The translations under genes were made by a program, and so were the position numbers. From Phytohabitans houttuyneae (GTDB lineage Bacteria > Actinomycetota > Actinomycetes > Mycobacteriales > Micromonosporaceae): a stretch of 64,000 nt of DNA. The notes under the pieces are model-generated. The model searched no databases and was not told the DNA's origin. It worked only from the letters and a program-made list of their open reading frames with translations. The stretch is taken from positions 682,997-746,996 of the forward strand of contig NZ_BLPF01000002.1 of the NCBI RefSeq assembly GCF_011764425.1, given 5' to 3'. Below are positions 7,563 to 36,683 of the stretch, one piece after another. Positions within the stretch are counted from its first letter, which is position 1; each line of letters begins with the position of its first letter.

Positions 7563-10500
7563 ATGGTGCGGCAGCCGGCCGACCCGTCCGAGGTGCACAC
7601 CGCCGCCGAGCTGTCCGCCAGCCTGAAATCGCTGTACCGAGGTCGTGGCCTGTCCTACAGCCAGCTCGACGCGCGGGCACGGGCGCTGCCCGCGCCGGGG
7701 GCCGGCTGCGGGCGCTGCCGCGTAGCACGCTCGGCGACATGCTCAACGGCAAGGTGCCGGCCAGGGAGACGCTGGTGACCTTCCTGGCGGTGTGCGGGGT
7801 CGGCGCGGCCGACGAGCAGCGGTGGCTGGCGGCGTGGCAGCGGGTCCGCGACGACGACCCGCGCCGCCCGCCGGGAGGCGTGCGGGTCCGCGACGCCTCG
7901 CCGAGGGAGCTGGGGGTACACGCGGCGATCCAGGGCCGCGCCGGCGACAGCGGTGAGCTTCCGGTGTACGTACCCCGTGATGTCGACGCAGGCCTGCGGG
8001 CGGCGGTGTCGGCAGGCGCGGAGCGGGGCTGCTTCCTGCTGCTGGTGGGGTCGTCGTCGGTGGGCAAGACGCGGTCGGCCTACGAAGCGGTCCTCGCGTG
8101 CGCGCCGGACTGGTGGCTGGTGCAGCCGGCGGACGCGGACGGCGTGTGGAGGCTGGCCGCCGCGCCGGTGCCGCGCACCGTCGTGTGGCTGGACGAGCTG
8201 CAGCGCTACCTCGGCGAGCGGGGGCTGGCCGCCGAGACGGTGCGCGAGCTGCGCCGCGCCGGCGCGGTCGTGATCGGCACGCTGTGGCCCGACGAGTACC
8301 TGGCCCGCACCGTCCCGCGTGCTCCGGGGACGGACGACCCGTACGCCGGCGACCGCGCGCTGCTGGACCTGGCCGAGGTCGTCGACGTTGCCGACACGCT
8401 CAGCGGTGAGGAACGGGGGCGCGCGGCCGCCCTCGCCGCCACCGACAGCCGCCTGCGGGTCGCGCTCGAGACGGCCGGTGCCGGGACGATCCAGGTACTG
8501 GCCGCGGGCCCGGCGCTGGTGCGCTGGTGGGAGCAGTCGCCCGACCCGTACGCCAAGGCGGTCATCACCGCGGCCGTCGACGCCCGCCGCCTGGGTGCGC
8601 GTACGCCGCTGACCACTGCCTTCCTGGCCGCCGCGGCCGCGGGCTACCTGACACCCGCCCAGTGGGCCACCGCCCCGCCCGGCTGGGTGGACGCCGCCCT
8701 GTCCTACGCGCTGACCCCGCTGCACGGGGCGGCCGCCACGCTCGCGCCGGTACCAGCGGCGGGCGGCGAGCCGGGCCGGATCGGTGGCTACGCGATCGCC
8801 GACTACCTGCTGCAGCACGCCCGCCGCACGCGCCGGGCGGCCTGCCTGCCGGCCGCCTGCTGGCAGGCCATGGTGGAGCACATCCACGATCGCGACGACA
8901 CGCTGCGCCTTGCCGCCGCCGCCCAGGCGCGGATGCGCTACCTCTACGAAGAGCTCCTCTGCCGGCGCCTCGCGGCCGGCGACGCCGAGGCCGCCGACAG
9001 CCTGGCCACGCTGCTGGAGCGCCAGGATCGCATCGACGAGGCGGTCGCCGCACTCCGGCCGCACGCCGCCGGCACCCCCTACGCCGAAGACCACCTTGTC
9101 GACCTGCTCCTCGCACACGGCCGGGCGGACGAGGCGATCGCCGTGCTGTGGCCGCCGGACAGACCCAGTCGCGCTTCGTGGAGCGGTGCCGACAAGCTCG
9201 TCGAGCAACTGGTCCGGCTGGGCCGCGCGGAGCAGGCCGCCGCGGTGTTGCGGCCCCGCGCCGGCGCGGGTGATGCCGACGCCGCCTACCACCTTGCCGC
9301 GCTGCTGGTCCACCAGGGCCGCACCGGCGAGGCCATCACCGTGCTGCGGGCGCACAGCGGCGACTCGGACATCGACTCGCGGCTCGCCTCCCTGCTGGAC
9401 CGGGAGGGGCGGAGCGAGGAGATCATCGACCTCATGCGGCCGCACATGGACGCCGGCGGCCCGGACAGCTCGCCGCACTTCGCGATGCTGCTCGCCGAGC
9501 ACGGGCGCATCGACGAGCTGCGCCAGCGCGTCGCGGCCGGCGACGAGTGGGCGGTGCGGCCGCTCGCGGACTGGCTGGCCGACAACGCCTGCATCGAGGA
9601 GCTCACGGCACTTGTCGACAGCCGGCGCGCGTACGCGCCCCTCGACTACTCGGACTGGCTGACCGAGACGCTCTTCGAGCTGGGCCGGGTCGACGAGCTG
9701 CGGGTGCGGGCCGACGCGGGTGACCGCAGCGCGCCCTGGCGGCTCGCGGAGCTGCTCATCGCCCAGGGACGCATGCGGGACCTGCAAGAACGCGTCGAGG
9801 CCGGTGACCACGCCGCCACCTGGCGCCTCGCCCAGCACCTGGAGGGGCAGGGCCGGGTCGACGAGGCCATCGAGATGTTGCGGGCGTGGGGCGATGCCGC
9901 CGGCGCGGGTGGGCTGCTGGCCGGCCTGCTGGCCAAGCAGACACGCACTGCCGAGGCGATCGACGCGCTGCGGCCCTCCGTCGAGGCCGGCGACCTGACC
10001 GCCAGGCATGCGTTCGCCGACCTGCTCGTCAAGCACGGCCGTATCGACGAGCTGCGCCAGCGCGCCGGCGCCGGAGACGACTACGCGACCTGGCGGCTCG
10101 TTGACCTGCTGATCGGGCACGGCCAGCTCGACGAGGCCATCCACGCGCTTCAGGCCCTCGCCGGCACCGGCGACTGGCCCGCCAACCGGCGGCTGGACGA
10201 GCTGCTCGCCGACGAGGGGCGCCTCGACGCGCTGCGCGAACGCGCCGACGCCGGGCACGAGCAGGCCGCCCGGCGCCTGGCCGACCTGCTGGCCGGCCAA
10301 GGGGACATCGACGGGCTGCGGGCGCGCGCCGACGCCGGCGACTCGCACGCCCTCTGGCGGCTGCGCGACCTGCTCGCCGGACAGGGCCGTGCCGGCGAGC
10401 TGAAGGAACGCGCCGACGCCGGTGACCACGAGGCCGCGAAGCGGCTGACCAACCTGCTCGCCGAACAGGAGCGCATCGACGAGCTGCGGGCGGAGGTCGA

Positions 10501-10645
10501 CGCCGGCACGCACGGCGCGGCCGAGCGGCTGATCGCCGCGATCACCGCGCGGGGAGGGCTCGATCGGTACAGCGCCGCGCACGTCAGCGCGTTCGGCTTC
10601 ACGGCGGACGGCGCGGTGTGGTGTGAAGCTCGCCCTCCCGCGTAG
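7563..10645 (+). CDS. HTH-STAND ATPase with TPR-like repeats (frameshifted)
   Basis: About 1027 residues in two frames. The start (ATG 7563) gives an Xre-like N-terminus, VHTAAELSASLKSLYRGRG..., which continues after a missing base near 7700-7716 as LPRSTLGDMLNGK and FLAVCGVG; both halves are needed for a normal HTH domain. A P-loop NTPase follows (Walker A GSSSVGKT near 8047-8070; Walker B TVVWLDELQ near 8180). From about 8990 to 10540 the protein is a run of TPR-like helical repeats, first of about 32 residues (LLERQDRIDEAVAAL) and later of 28 (DLLAGQGRAGELKERADAGD). The layout is that of a STAND signal ATPase: sensor repeats, switch, and here an HTH as effector or adaptor. Target and trigger are unknown. 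The frameshift may be a sequencing error. Confidence 0.75.
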
Positions 10646-30582: not shown

Positions 30583-31292
30583 CTAGCAGCTGCCGGCGTT
30601 GTCGTCGCGTTTCACTGTGGTCCAGCCGAGCCGTTCGCCCGGTACCGATGGCACCCAGTAGGGCTCTCCGTCGTGTGTGGACAGTTCGGCGGCGTACGAG
30701 TCGCTGACGGCGTACGCGTGCAGCTCGAACCGCTGGCCCGCGCTCGTCTGGTCGCCGACCACGACGCGGTTGGCGCGCCACGTCTGGCGGGCGGCGTCGA
30801 AGCGCAGCGGCTGCTCGTAGTAGTAACGCGTGTGGCCGGGGACGCGGACGAAGAGCACCGCGGTGCGACCTCTCGGCGGCGAGTCGCCCGTGCCGTGCAC
30901 GTCCGAGCAGTTGGGCACCGTCCCCGCGCTGGTGAAGCTGAACGCCACCGGCGGCGGGGGCGCCGGCGTGCTCGGCTTGGCCAGGGTGGGCGTGGGCGTC
31001 GCCGATGGTGACGCAGTCGGTGACGGGGTCGGGGACTGGCTCACCGGCGGCTCGGTGGCCGGTGCCGTCGTCTGCGGCGAGGCCGGGGAGTCGTGGGTGT
31101 GCCCTGTGGAGTCGTCGAAGTCTGTGGCCCAGGCTTGTCGGCGGCGAGCACCAGGTACGTCGGCAGGGCGCCGAAGACGCCGACGATCAGGGTCGCCGCC
31201 ACACCGAGCGCCGCGACCTGGCCGCCCGCCTTCAGGGAGCGCCACCACCGCCGGAAGCCGGTCCGCCGCCGCTCCGGTGTGCCTGCTGCCAT
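30583..31292 (-). CDS. Membrane-anchored Pro/Thr-rich protein (frameshifted)
   Basis: The start (ATG at 31290-31292) encodes a basic stretch and one membrane helix (GGQVAALGVAATLIVGVFGA), then a Pro/Thr linker that runs out of frame near 31085-31100 at a CCCC run and continues in the next frame (PATEPPVSQSPTPSPT). The outer domain of about 130 residues (VAFSFTSAGTVPNCSDVHG ... VPGERLGWTTVK) ends with a Cys and is seen in other actinomycetes near regulatory modules. One base appears missing; about 236 residues if repaired. Function unknown. Confidence 0.65.
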
Positions 31293-31381
31293 GTCGCGGG
31301 CCTCCTCGGTTCCGTGCACGTTGTCAGTGCATCGGCTGCGGCGGCGACGCGCCCGTTCTTGTCGGATGGCCGACGGTCAGA

Positions 31382-34300
31382 TCACGCCGGCGTGGGGTCC
31401 GTGGGGTCCGAGTCGGCGCGGATCGTCCACAGTGTCCCCTTCAGCTCGGCGGTGAATGGGACGCCGCTTTCGAGCAGCGTCTGAGCCAGCGGTGCGGCCG
31501 CTGGCCCGTCCGCGTTGCTGCCGAGCCAGGCGCGCGTGGCGTCCTCCAGCCACCGCACCTCGTCGCCGGTCAGGTCGTCGCGCCGCGCGACGGACGCGAT
31601 AACCAGATGGGCGTTGGTGACCTCGGCGAACGTTGCCAGCCACGTGCGGGCCAGGCGCATGACCGTCTGCCGGATGTCGGGGTCCAGTGCCGGCTCGCCG
31701 ACGATCACTCCCAGGGTGAACCGGCTCTTCGGCGCGCTGATCCGCTGCTCGATGACCCGCAGGTGCCCGGCCAGGACGTCGCGGACGAGGTCGGGCTGCG
31801 CGGACTGCCGGTGGAAGAGGGCCTGGAGGACGAACCGTGCACCGTAAGCGTGCAGCTTCTCCCGGCTCAGCCAGAGCTCCGCCGCTTTGAACGCCCGGGG
31901 TAGCAGGTCATCCGGCAGGTCCTGGCTGCCCAGCACGTCGGAGATGATCTCGGACGCGCGCGGCGTTCCGGCGTACTCGTCGAGCCAGCCCACCGCGGCC
32001 CGAAGCACGCGGCGTCGCGTCCGGGCGTCCGAGACGTGCGGCTGCAGCATCAGGACGATGACCTGGCGGGCCTCCGTGGTGGATTCGAAGTGCGAGAGCC
32101 ACTGCAGCGCCCGTTCCGTCAGCCGCAGGCGCTGGTCGTCGGTGAGGTCCCAACTGCCCTCGTCCGGGCCGTCCTGGAGAACGGCTCGGAGGGCCGCGCC
32201 GGCGGTCGCCTCCTGCCACCACGCGTCCAGCCAGGACATCACCGCGTTGACGGCGGCCTGGCGAAGCGCGGACGGCCGGCGGGCGATCTGCAGCAGGGCG
32301 TCGATGAGGTAGCGCGTGTCCGGCAGCTTGCCGTGGTCGTGGAGCCAGGTTTGCGCGGTGGTGAAGGCGGCGGTGCGCAACGCCGCCGGCAGCTCGTGCG
32401 CCTGCAGCAGCGCCTGGATGAGAAACCGCGAGTCCGGCAGTTTGCCGTGTATCCGCAGCGAGGTCTCCGCCGCGCTGTACGTGGTGGTGCGCAGGTCCGC
32501 CGGCAACCCGGTGACGCGCAGCAGTACCTCGATGAGAAAGCGCGCGTCGGGGTGCTCGCCGTAGCGCCGCAGCCACGTCTGTGCGGTGCTGTAGGTGGCG
32601 GTGCGCAGGTCCTCGGGCGGATCTTTGGCCTTCAGGAGTACCTGCAGCAGGAAGTTGGTCCCGGGGTCGTCGGGATGGGCACGCAGAGAGGTCAGGGCCG
32701 CGGTGAACGTGGTCGTGCGTAGCTCCGCCGGCAGTCCGTCGGCCCGGAGCAGGATCTCGATGAGGTACCGCGCGTCGGGGTGCTTGTCGTGGGTCTGCAG
32801 CCAGGTTTGGGCGGTGCTGTAGGTGGTGGCGCGCAGCTCCTCGGGCAGGTCGTCGGCCTGCCGGAGGAGCACCTGGAGCAGGTAGTTGGTGCCGAGGTGC
32901 TTGCCGTGGGTCCGCAAGGTGGTGAGGGCGGTGGTGTGTGTGGTGGTGCGCAGGTCGTCGGGCAGGTCGGCGAGGCGGAACAGGATCTGGAGGAGGAAGG
33001 CCGAGCCGACGTCGGCGCCGTGGGTCCGCAGCGACGTCCGCGCCGCGGTCAGGGCGGTGGCGCGCAGGTCCGCCGGCAGCCCTTCGGTCTGCAGCAGCAC
33101 CTCGATGAGGTACCGCGCGTCGGGGTGCTTGTCGTGGGTCTGCAGCCAGGTCTCGACCGTGGCGTAGGTGGTGGTGCGCAGGTCCTCAGGGGCGTCTTTG
33201 GCCTTCAGGAGCACTTGCAGCAGGAAGCTCGCCCCGAGGTGCTCGCCGTGGATCTGCAGCCAGGCCCGTGCCGTGCTGAAGGTGGCGGTGCGCAGGCTCT
33301 CGGGCAGGTCTTTGGCCTTCAGGAGTACCTGCAGCAGGAAGTTCGCGCCGAGGTGCTCGCCGTGGACACCGAGCCAGGCTTCGGCCGTGCCGTGGGTGGC
33401 CGTGCGCAGCTCCTCGGGCAGCCCGCTGTCCTGCACCAGCGCCTGCAACAGGTAGTTTGCCGTCTCCGTCGTCCCGTACCGGCTCAGCCAGTCCTGCGCC
33501 GCGGCACGGACGACCGCGACCATGTCCGCGGACATCGCGGGCTGAGCCAGCGCCCTGCGGATGAGGTAGTCGGCGGTCGCGCTGTCCGAGTTTTCCTCGA
33601 GCCACTCCCGGACGTGCCCGAGCGTCTCGGTGAGCGTCGCGTGGGTGAGGTCGCGCCGTCCCAGCAGGTGCGCCAGTACGTAGTTGGCTTCCGGCATCGT
33701 CGAGTGGCTTGCGATCCAGCGCCGGGCGAACCCGATCAGACCGGAGGAGCGGTCTTCCGGTACGCCCGAGTCGCTGAGCAGCCCGGGCAGCACATAGCTC
33801 GCGTCGACGCTCTGGCCGTGCGGGCGCAGCCAGGCGCGGGCGAACGTGACGAGGGGGTCGATGGCGTGGGCGGGCAGGTTTTTGACCTTGCTCAGCGCTT
33901 GCAGGAGGTAGGACGCCCCCAGCTGGGTGCCGTTTTCGGCCAGCCACTCCAGGGCGAAGTCGACCAGCCGCTCAAGGTCGGGGTCCCCGTCGTGGTCCAC
34001 GACGTCGCACCACAGGATCGCGCTGAGCAGAAAGTCGGACTGCGCGTCGCGGGCGTGGAACTGCAGCCAGTTGAGTCCGAGCTGGACGGCGGCGCGGCCC
34101 TGCTCCGGCGGCAGGTCGTCGCGCCTGACCAGGATGCGCATGAGCTGGCTGACGCCGCCAAGAGGGCGTCCGGTCAGCCACGCCAGGGCGTAGTCGGCCA
34201 GTTCGGCGGCCGTGTCCCGGCGTTGCGGGGGCAGGCTGCGGGCGGCCGCCAGAAGCAAGGTGTACGCCTCGTGCCGGTGCCCGAGCGCGGCGAGCAGCGG

Positions 34301-36331
34301 GCTGAACAGATGCTTCCAGTACTCCTGCCGGGTGGTGGTGAGCATCCCGCTGCTCAGCAGCACCGCCGCCGTCCGCGCCCCCGCACCCGGATCCTGCAGC
34401 AGCAGCTGCGCCACCTGCTCGCGCCGCTGCGCGAACCACCGGTCGGTCTCGGCGACCACCGCCGCGTGCTGCTGCTCGTCGAGGTCGTCGACAAGCCGGC
34501 TGAGCGCGACGAGGGCGTGCTCCAGGGAGCCCGGCCGCCCGCTGACGGCGTCCAGCAGCTGAGCCGTGATCGCCGGTCGCAGGGCGTGCGTGGTGCTCCA
34601 GAACATGACGCCTGCGACGAGGAAGTCGGTGACGACGTCGTGCACGGATTCGAGGACGTCGTCGACCTTGGTGAGCCAGCCCATCTCGGTGAGCAGGCGT
34701 AGCAGGTTCGCCGCGGAGGCGCGGTCGCCGAACAGGTGCGTGGCGGCCTCCAGCAGCGCCGGCTCGTCCGCCGGCGTGGCGAGGAAGACCGCCGCGGCCG
34801 CCTGGATGTGTACCTTCACCTGCGGACCCCAGAGGCTGTCCGGGGTGTCGAGCCGGGGTACGAGCTGGTCCTCGTCCAGCCGGATGTCGAGCCACTGCTG
34901 CAGATCGCTGGCGTCCATGCTCGCGCGGGGCAGCGGCGGCAGGTCGCGCTTGATCCGGTCTTCGATCTGCCGGGCCACCAGCAGGGTCAGGATCGGGCGG
35001 ATGGCGCCGGTGTACGCCAGCAGCGTCTCCGGTCCCAGCGTCTTCGCCGCGCGCGGGGCGGCCGCCTGTGCGAGCGACGCGCAGATGGCCTTCAGATCTT
35101 CGCCTTCGGGCTCCAGGCGGATCTGTTCCAGGGCGACCACGTCACGCGCGTGGGCCGCCGTGAGCAGCCAGCCGGTACGCGCACTGGCCACGACGGCAAG
35201 GCGCGGGCTTGCGCCCCGCCGGCTCTGCTGCACCAGTGCCAGCAACTGCGCCAGGTCCAGGTCCTTGGCCATGCTCTGGTTGAGGTAGTCGACGACCAGC
35301 AGCACCGGCGTAAACGAGGACCGCACGACCGCGGCCACGTGATCCACCACCGCGGCGGCGTTTCCCGGGCGGACGTGCAGGACGGTCCAGTCGTCCTCGA
35401 CCGCCAAGCCGGCGACCTCCAGCAGCGTGCGGGTCTTGCCGACGCCACCGTGCCCGCTCACCAGCACGGAGTTCGCCCCGTCGCCGGCACGCAGCCGCCG
35501 CCAGATGTTGCGTGGATGCCACGCGGTCGTGGACGGTGGCTCGACGTAAGGCATCACGTCGTACAGCAGGCTGGACCGGTACCCCTCGAGCGACCGCAGG
35601 ATCGTCTGGTGATGCACGACGCACGGCGGGCCGGCGGGCCCAGGCCGTACGACACTCAACGAGGCGCTCCGCGTGACCCCGAGGGCCGACCACCACTGGT
35701 CCGCCTCCGCCGCGCCGTCCAGCGCGGTCAGCGGAATGGCGATCAGCGCACCCGGACCCTCGGACAACCCGTGTGTCGTCACGACGGCCGCCAAGTGACC
35801 GTCGACCAGGACCGGCGCCCCGGAGAAACCCTGCCACGGCGAACCCGGCCCGGTGGTCGCCGGCGGGCTGCCGCCGACGTCGATGCGCAGCAGGCCGTCC
35901 CGCAGCCGGCTCATGACGTCGATGCTCCCGACCGCCGAGTAGGTGCTGCGGCGCGCCCCGACCGGGCCGTCCATGAACCGCGGCCAGCCCACCACCCGCA
36001 CCGACTCCAGCGCGCCCATGCCGCCGCGGTCGATCTCCGCGACCGGAAAGGGCGGCGCGTCCAGCGCGGGGTCGTCGATCTCCACGATCGCCAGGTCCGG
36101 GGCGGTGCCGGCACCGGGAGCGCGCGGGTCGCCGCGCCACCGCACCTGCCCGGTGTACCGGTTGCCCACCGCGTCGTCCAGCAGCACCGTCCGGGCACCG
36201 GCGACTACGTGCGCGCAGGTGAGCACCGCCCGGCCCGCCACAAGAAAGCCCGAACCGTAGGCATAACGGCCACCTGGGCGACCGCTGCCGCGATCGGCGA
36301 CTATTCCGAGGACACGCTCTGCGACCCGCAT
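31382..36331 (-). CDS. Trypsin-like protease - STAND NTPase - helical-repeat protein
   Basis: A 1649-residue protein with three parts. Residues 1 to about 215 are a trypsin-like serine protease with a complete triad: H41 in TCAHVV, D79 in PDLAIVEID, S170 in GFSGAPV. Residues about 240-700 are a STAND-type NTPase: P-loop GHGGVGKT (293-300), Walker B VLLVVDY (D348). Residues about 760-1600 are superhelical repeats; the central ones have a period of 38 residues (LPESLRTATFSTARAWL, HGEHLGASFLLQVLLKAK). Proteases joined to NTPase switches and repeat sensors are a known design of bacterial conflict/immune proteins. It is the second gene after the trypco2 gene, 22 nt apart. Confidence 0.88.
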   Translation of the reverse strand: MRVAERVLGIVADRGSGRPGGRYAYGSGFLVAGRAVLTCAHVVAGARTVLLDDAVGNRYTGQVRWRGDPRAPGAGTAPDLAIVEIDDPALDAPPFPVAEIDRGGMGALESVRVVGWPRFMDGPVGARRSTYSAVGSIDVMSRLRDGLLRIDVGGSPPATTGPGSPWQGFSGAPVLVDGHLAAVVTTHGLSEGPGALIAIPLTALDGAAEADQWWSALGVTRSASLSVVRPGPAGPPCVVHHQTILRSLEGYRSSLLYDVMPYVEPPSTTAWHPRNIWRRLRAGDGANSVLVSGHGGVGKTRTLLEVAGLAVEDDWTVLHVRPGNAAAVVDHVAAVVRSSFTPVLLVVDYLNQSMAKDLDLAQLLALVQQSRRGASPRLAVVASARTGWLLTAAHARDVVALEQIRLEPEGEDLKAICASLAQAAAPRAAKTLGPETLLAYTGAIRPILTLLVARQIEDRIKRDLPPLPRASMDASDLQQWLDIRLDEDQLVPRLDTPDSLWGPQVKVHIQAAAAVFLATPADEPALLEAATHLFGDRASAANLLRLLTEMGWLTKVDDVLESVHDVVTDFLVAGVMFWSTTHALRPAITAQLLDAVSGRPGSLEHALVALSRLVDDLDEQQHAAVVAETDRWFAQRREQVAQLLLQDPGAGARTAAVLLSSGMLTTTRQEYWKHLFSPLLAALGHRHEAYTLLLAAARSLPPQRRDTAAELADYALAWLTGRPLGGVSQLMRILVRRDDLPPEQGRAAVQLGLNWLQFHARDAQSDFLLSAILWCDVVDHDGDPDLERLVDFALEWLAENGTQLGASYLLQALSKVKNLPAHAIDPLVTFARAWLRPHGQSVDASYVLPGLLSDSGVPEDRSSGLIGFARRWIASHSTMPEANYVLAHLLGRRDLTHATLTETLGHVREWLEENSDSATADYLIRRALAQPAMSADMVAVVRAAAQDWLSRYGTTETANYLLQALVQDSGLPEELRTATHGTAEAWLGVHGEHLGANFLLQVLLKAKDLPESLRTATFSTARAWLQIHGEHLGASFLLQVLLKAKDAPEDLRTTTYATVETWLQTHDKHPDARYLIEVLLQTEGLPADLRATALTAARTSLRTHGADVGSAFLLQILFRLADLPDDLRTTTHTTALTTLRTHGKHLGTNYLLQVLLRQADDLPEELRATTYSTAQTWLQTHDKHPDARYLIEILLRADGLPAELRTTTFTAALTSLRAHPDDPGTNFLLQVLLKAKDPPEDLRTATYSTAQTWLRRYGEHPDARFLIEVLLRVTGLPADLRTTTYSAAETSLRIHGKLPDSRFLIQALLQAHELPAALRTAAFTTAQTWLHDHGKLPDTRYLIDALLQIARRPSALRQAAVNAVMSWLDAWWQEATAGAALRAVLQDGPDEGSWDLTDDQRLRLTERALQWLSHFESTTEARQVIVLMLQPHVSDARTRRRVLRAAVGWLDEYAGTPRASEIISDVLGSQDLPDDLLPRAFKAAELWLSREKLHAYGARFVLQALFHRQSAQPDLVRDVLAGHLRVIEQRISAPKSRFTLGVIVGEPALDPDIRQTVMRLARTWLATFAEVTNAHLVIASVARRDDLTGDEVRWLEDATRAWLGSNADGPAAAPLAQTLLESGVPFTAELKGTLWTIRADSDPTDPTPA

Positions 36332-36353
36332 TGGAGGCTGCCTGTGGAACGCC

Positions 36354-36683
36354 TCACCGCTTCAACTGGTCCGCCGTGTCTGTGACGCTCACCTGATTTC
36401 CGTGCGCGTCCACAGGAGCGCCCAACTCTAGGATGATCGTGCTGACCGCCTCGTCCTGCCGGCCCACCTCGCCGCCCAGCTCCGCGTTGACGAACGGCAC
36501 CTTGAAGCCCGCCTTGCCGCTCTTGCTGCGGGTCGCGACAACCTTCAGCTCGATCGTCGCCGACGTCACCGGAAACGTCGGGAAGCCGGACCCGCTGGCG
36601 GCGGCCGCCGCGAGATCCGCCTTCAGCGCCTCGATCGCGTCAGCGAGGCCCCATCCCCGAGCGTCCGTGTCGTCGACATCCAT
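36354..36683 (-). CDS. Trypco2 (trypsin-co-occurring domain 2) protein
   Basis: A 109-residue protein matching the trypco2 family: GWGLADAIEALKADLAAAAA, then a strand-rich part (FPVTSATIELKVVATRSKSG, FVNAELGG, VSTIILELGAPVDAHGN). Family members sit next to or are fused with trypsin-like proteases in NTP-dependent conflict systems, where they are thought to be the partner or substrate of the protease. ATG 36683 follows GGGAGGG; GTG 36689 is possible. It is the first gene of a two-gene operon with the protease-STAND gene. Confidence 0.82.
   Translation of the reverse strand: MDVDDTDARGWGLADAIEALKADLAAAAASGSGFPTFPVTSATIELKVVATRSKSGKAGFKVPFVNAELGGEVGRQDEAVSTIILELGAPVDAHGNQVSVTDTADQLKR

Follow-up and report, generated by a model that had tools for sequence, protein, structure and literature searches.

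We infer that a Trypco2 gene and, 22 nt downstream of it, a gene for a large protein combining a trypsin-like protease, an NTPase and a helical repeat array probably form a minimal two-gene conflict system, which is likely to act against phages and consists of a sensor, an NTPase switch, a protease and a Trypco2 partner. The pair lies on the minus strand within a 64-kb window, by which we mean the whole stretch of DNA analysed here, of an 11.3-Mb host genome. The parts of such a system are already known; what is added here is that they occur in a two-gene form, which is present or absent as a unit and predominates among the Trypco2 loci that were examined. Trypco2 and its protease are found here in isolation from the multi-gene systems where they were first described and, since this two-gene unit has empty sites in relatives, the role of Trypco2 becomes directly testable. 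The pair would also add a non-nuclease partner to an emerging rule, namely, that bacterial immune receptors act via a fused protease and a neighbour.

The gene pair and its domains

The initial annotation, made from the letters alone, described a trypco2 gene followed by a protein with an intact serine protease triad and a P-loop switch, and this observation proved accurate down to the coordinates (Table 1). The match of the small gene to PF19631 exceeds the gathering score, upholding the trypco2 assignment, and this is the only Pfam family that the gene matches; its product was placed in one alignment with 13 relatives encoded at other loci, and its structure model, built on 8 sequences, has a pLDDT of 44.9. 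In the large protein, the triad was confirmed in the sequence, from which the His, Asp and Ser were read, and the predicted structure has the protease fold that had been proposed: a fold search with the model indicates an HtrA-like N-terminus, in rows that cover mainly residues 1-218. The motifs of the claimed switch are present, namely GHGGVGKT and LLVVDY, the Walker A and Walker B motifs, respectively. The NTPase region, modelled mostly with a pLDDT below 50, scores 30.7 and 33.6 bits against the nSTAND5 profile, just below the cut-off of 34; the same profile is matched at E 0.01 by 21 of the 52 ORFs of the survey described below, and GK[ST] occupies the corresponding alignment position in 39 of the 44 triad-bearing members, the window protein included.

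Table 1. Features of the Trypco2-protease pair in the window
Feature	Position	Strand	Basis
Trypco2 gene, 109 aa	36354..36683	-	PF19631, 66.1 bits (cut-off 24.2)
Trypsin-NTPase-repeat protein, 1649 aa	31382..36331	-	ORF and Pfam
HtrA/trypsin-like serine protease domain, residues ~1-225	35657..36331	-	H41, D79, S170
STAND-type NTPase region, residues ~226-560	34652..35656	-	nSTAND_NTPase5, 33.6 bits (cut-off 34); Walker A GHGGVGKT at 293, Walker B LLVVDY
Helical region, 38-residue alpha-alpha repeats from residue 740, putative sensor	31382..34114	-	16 units; two helices per unit in model

The two ORFs at 30583-31319, directly downstream of the pair, were considered as a third gene and rejected. 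The second of them has homologues in 2 other genomes of 101 (G038 and G048), and this gene is not tied to the pair because G038 has no Trypco2 match and the G048 homologues lie on other contigs than Trypco2. The two ORFs overlap in different frames, possibly owing to a frame break in one gene, and the first appears transmembrane-like by eye.

Trypco2 loci in related genomes

Of 201 related genomes, the host genome among them, 46 contain matches to PF19631, at 62 places in total; of 14 control genomes, 2 have a match, and neither is from an actinomycete. Sixty of these places were examined, two below the cut-off (G074, G039) being left out. A trypsin frame on the same strand adjoins Trypco2 in 52 of the 60 loci; the H-D-S residues are in a single frame in 49 of them and split over two frames in the remaining three (L004, L102, L114), and no loss of the triad by substitution was seen among the 52. 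The trypsins beside Trypco2 in this survey have, hence, retained their catalytic residues, in contrast to the trypsins in the vWA effector position, which, according to excerpts of the original description (PMC7159879), are almost without exception inactive, the VMAP trypsins differing from them in this. The NTPase profile is matched in 45 of the 52 loci, the trypsin and NTPase profiles of the survey having been built from 39 of these loci; an independent count with Pfam Trypsin_2 gives matches in 41 of the 52 downstream ORFs with a length of 350 aa or more. The layout is that of an operon: the distance from stop to start does not exceed 40 nt in 40 of the 44 loci in which the triad was read in the downstream ORF (starts being those of the longest ORF), and a third linked gene is rare, since on the same strand a gene follows within 60 nt in 4 of 42 loci and precedes within 80 nt in 2 of 44.

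The trypsin is absent in 8 of the 60 loci (L082, L086, L113, L116-L120), of which L113 is cut by a contig end; it lies upstream of Trypco2 in L080 and L111, and in L109 a fragment intervenes between Trypco2 and the full trypsin, which starts ~1.3 kb downstream. Seven of the 52 (L004, L036, L045, L094, L100, L105, L107) have no same-strand match to the NTPase profile, although L004 and L105 contain a P-loop motif. As for the window protein as a whole, relatives were found in 17 of the 201 genomes at E 1e-10, its own included, with none in a scan of genome contigs and, at that same threshold, none in the 5 congeners; three of these five (G001, G003, G004) carry other Trypco2 genes. Trypco2 was found neither in viral contigs, with a 7-sequence subset as query, nor in phages, with the window Trypco2 as query.

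Several loci depart from the common form. The second Trypco2 gene of the host genome (L004, 9729-13110) is followed by a trypsin frame that is interrupted and thereby divided into two parts; ORFs in the vicinity resemble, by eye, remnants of an IS110 transposase. Trypco2-linked protease genes are broken or frame-split in L004, L102, L110, L114 and L135; the breaks may reflect the cost of carrying immunity genes or may result from sequencing error. In L036 (8589-10965) and L100 (genomes G064 and G089), a Trypco2 subtype goes with a short trypsin of ~380 aa, without an NTPase profile match, directly followed by a ~320-aa protein that looks membrane-like by eye, the one of L036 having no Pfam match; this is possibly a membrane-linked variant. 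L116, L117 and L118 encode Trypco2-matching proteins of 162-173 aa that begin just where a larger gene ends, with no trypsin nearby, and in L119 and L120 weakly Trypco2-like small genes, also without a trypsin, adjoin genes that by eye resemble copper-resistance genes.

Presence and absence of the pair

Comparison of related genomes shows the pair to be present or absent as a whole. In genus g39, G043 shares its flanks with G082 and G095 and has 14 bases in place of 4.3 kb in G095, which comprise Trypco2, the trypsin-NTPase gene and ~0.25 kb beyond; in genus g32, G036 has 0.1 kb in place of 4.7 kb in G104, and 0.7 against 4.6 kb in the comparison with G080. Since the empty sites in two genera lack the two genes, the pair is a unit that is gained or lost, the comparison being one of presence and absence that does not distinguish the direction. 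The "minimal two-gene form" of the initial annotation agrees with this, in that the empty sites of two relatives are without the two genes and little else. For the window locus, no empty site could be demonstrated, the flanks being scattered in the congeners, with G005 having them on the same contig but ~42 kb apart.

Trypco2 is also found in 17 plasmid records, and the pair is borne by plasmids of actinomycetes. All seven examined have a trypsin beside it, in one case as a fragment, and five of the seven match the NTPase profile; in a Rhodococcus plasmid the Trypco2 copy is directly behind mobF, and the copy with the trypsin fragment is one gene away from mobF. Public annotation already places a "trypco2 family protein" beside trypsins.

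The window pair is surrounded by xylanase, LacI, glyoxalase and GH43 genes and is not in a defence island. The initial annotation had regarded a conserved order among housekeeping genes as evidence against an immune role. Although the flanks consist of ordinary metabolic genes and, in two species pairs, sister species have the locus at the same site, the pair itself varies.

The repeat region

The 38-residue repeats include ten similar copies at residues 971-1351, followed by sparse matches; the two-helix units were modelled to residue 1199. The ten central repeats are of two types, with pairwise identity of 28-81% and a pN/pS of 0.78; columns such as 2, 5, 6, 29 and 33 are invariant, and columns 19, 27, 36 and 37 are the most changeable. 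Thus, the region appears to be an expanded repeat array under loose constraint, with positive selection not proven by a pN/pS below 1.

The C-terminal parts of 41 relatives, cut at ORF residue 1800 (L078 and L081 ending with the fetched stretch), contain TPR families (up to 13 relatives), WD40 families (3) or nothing among the matches listed, i.e. those to the best 25 of 74 families, and the window protein has no family match there among these. In two of three ortholog pairs, identity is lowest in the C-terminal part (0.78 with 140 gap columns, and 0.85), and in the third this part is at 0.66 compared to 0.64 for the NTPase. Hence, as judged from sequence comparison, the putative sensor part is variable among relatives, and Trypco2 less so. 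In G107, a related NTPase and repeat array are found behind a trypsin, preceded by a pentapeptide-repeat gene and by a gene with very weak resemblance to Trypco (E 0.0055) and no Pfam match. The related NTPase and repeats of G083, the latter continuing in a second frame, stand behind another N-terminus that is not a trypsin, with an LCAT-like lipase gene upstream. Such arrangements indicate an exchange of modules.

Evolutionary rates

Trypco2 distances correlate more closely with those of the trypsin (r 0.50, partial 0.40 given the NTPase) than with those of the NTPase (r 0.40, partial 0.25 given the trypsin; n=39), and for 32 dereplicated members the values are 0.47 and 0.38 for the trypsin vs 0.39 and 0.26 for the NTPase (0/2000 permutations in all cases), these being raw distances that still contain the host phylogeny. 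In three ortholog pairs, Trypco2 identity is 0.92-0.94 and its dN/dS is 0.12-0.23, slow even when that of the trypsin is 0.60 (pair L034/L032); a slow Trypco2 beside a fast trypsin argues against tight protease-specific co-evolution. In L034/L032 the large gene clearly outpaces its flanks (dN/dS 0.48-0.72 vs 0.05-0.39) and in L042/L046 it hardly does so (0.12-0.26 vs 0.10-0.20), flank-gene rates having been compared for these two pairs and not for L084/L085.

Relation to known systems

In AVAST type 1 (Avs1a/Avs1b) and other nuclease-protease pairs, as described in the accessible text of PMC12799240, the partner gene is, as in the window, typically immediately upstream, and the trypsin is N-terminally fused to the defence protein; upon infection, the Avs1 protease cleaves the product of the partner gene, a gated nuclease. 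The nuclease partner there has the MBL fold, whereas the window pair has Trypco2 in its place: among the flanking genes checked, there is no MBL-fold pro-nuclease gene beside the window protease. The HxHxDH motif, the MBL signature, occurs in one called gene within 5 kb of the 60 Trypco2 loci, and that gene is non-adjacent. The PADLOC model of Avs1b matches 19 of the 52 survey ORFs at 1e-3, as do other models (LmuA 18, RT-Protease 17 and 16, STAND_TPR 15, HamA 7); with matches to so many models, what is shown is that the protease and switch parts are akin to those of known systems, and not that the pair belongs to Avs1. The window protein itself has no PADLOC match at 1e-3, the best being RT-Protease_XI at E 0.0053, and Avs1b is absent from its matches up to E 1.

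The VMAP-MoxR-vWA ternary systems (Kaur 2020, PMC7159879, in excerpt) share with the window a trypsin domain with a neighbouring Trypco2 gene, but in the window the trypsin is carried by an NTPase-repeat protein and there is no VMAP-C. Specifically, VMAP-C has no match in the host genome, and none of the 62 Trypco2 places has one closer than 67 kb on its contig (by-eye comparison of tables, with reach limited by contig ends). At the window locus, Pfam matches to MoxR or vWA are absent from the ten genes that flank the pair from 25.9 to 41.2 kb and from the two ORFs just downstream. The CARD-NLR-like LypABC system, as far as the available part of PMC13236601 goes, also has a trypsin-like peptidase fused to an ATPase, and the peptidase serine is required for lysis; it differs in having three genes, a CARD-like domain and a trypsin-endonuclease partner, with no mention of Trypco2 in that part. 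The DGR loci contain a Trypco2 gene and diversified sensors, which are C-type lectins there and a repeat superhelix in the window (PMC10907252, in part). A free-standing pair of Trypco2 and a trypsin-NTPase was not found described in the main-text portions of the literature consulted (supplementary files lying outside this scope), which tie Trypco2 to VMAP systems and DGR loci.

Proposed mechanism and alternatives

The mechanism can be envisaged as follows. The C-terminal alpha-alpha superhelix would sense a trigger, upon which the STAND-type NTPase would switch and assemble, and the N-terminal HtrA-like protease would then become active, with Trypco2, translated just ahead of the protease, as its dedicated partner. 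The trigger, the NTP-driven assembly, the activation, the proteolytic target, the outcome for the cell, be it immunity or abortive infection, and the role of Trypco2 are what we infer. Trypco2 would most likely be a substrate of the protease or its obligate cofactor, and less likely a restraint on it, the genome data not deciding between these roles. The logic would resemble that of Avs1, with Trypco2 in the slot of the pro-nuclease. By extension, Trypco2 and the trypsin could form a portable protease-plus-partner effector cassette, a counterpart of the nuclease-protease pairs, mounted on STAND receptors here and on VMAP proteins elsewhere, with Trypco2 as a new proteolytically activated effector that is released or unmasked by cleavage; this we offer as a speculation that is rather unlikely to hold.

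The restraining role deserves consideration in the form of an antitoxin-like inhibitor that is produced before the protease and keeps it inactive until the trigger is sensed, whereupon the inhibitor is displaced or degraded. Antitoxin genes often sit just upstream, as does the small gene here (overlapping or within 40 nt in 40/44), its distances track those of the protease, and it is under strong purifying selection. However, the partner in Avs1, the closest worked case, is a substrate although its gene, too, is typically upstream (PMC12799240, in excerpt), and in one pair a fast protease is accompanied by no matching change in Trypco2, so that an inhibitor seems to us an unlikely, if respectable, alternative. 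There is a smaller chance that Trypco2 is a mere adaptor recruiting the large protein to a component encoded elsewhere, such as a ternary MoxR-vWA system: Trypco2 is so called in the accessible part of PMC10907252, was defined beside VMAP trypsins (PMC7159879, in excerpt), and the 38-aa repeats match part of a SAV_2336-type protein adjoining a MoxR gene on a Streptomyces plasmid. This is countered by the empty sites, which lack little more than the pair, and by the VMAP-C results given above, which cover the VMAP type among the ternary systems (iSTAND and TERNS3 being others).

Equally improbable, in our estimate, is a role outside immunity, as a regulated protease that serves the stress response or the development of hyphal actinomycetes. 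The fold of HtrA is also that of protein-quality proteases, the neighbour genes are ordinary, and the locus has stayed in place in two sister-species pairs. Arguments against a protease of this kind are the patchy distribution (46/201 genomes), the plasmid-borne copies, the presence or absence of the pair as a unit, the broken frames in some loci and the variable C-terminal part. The conflict system remains our preferred reading of the pair. Elsewhere in the window, at 7739-10645, a 968-aa protein with TPR matches, 84-bp tandem repeats and an EAD11 match below the cut-off is possibly another conflict protein.
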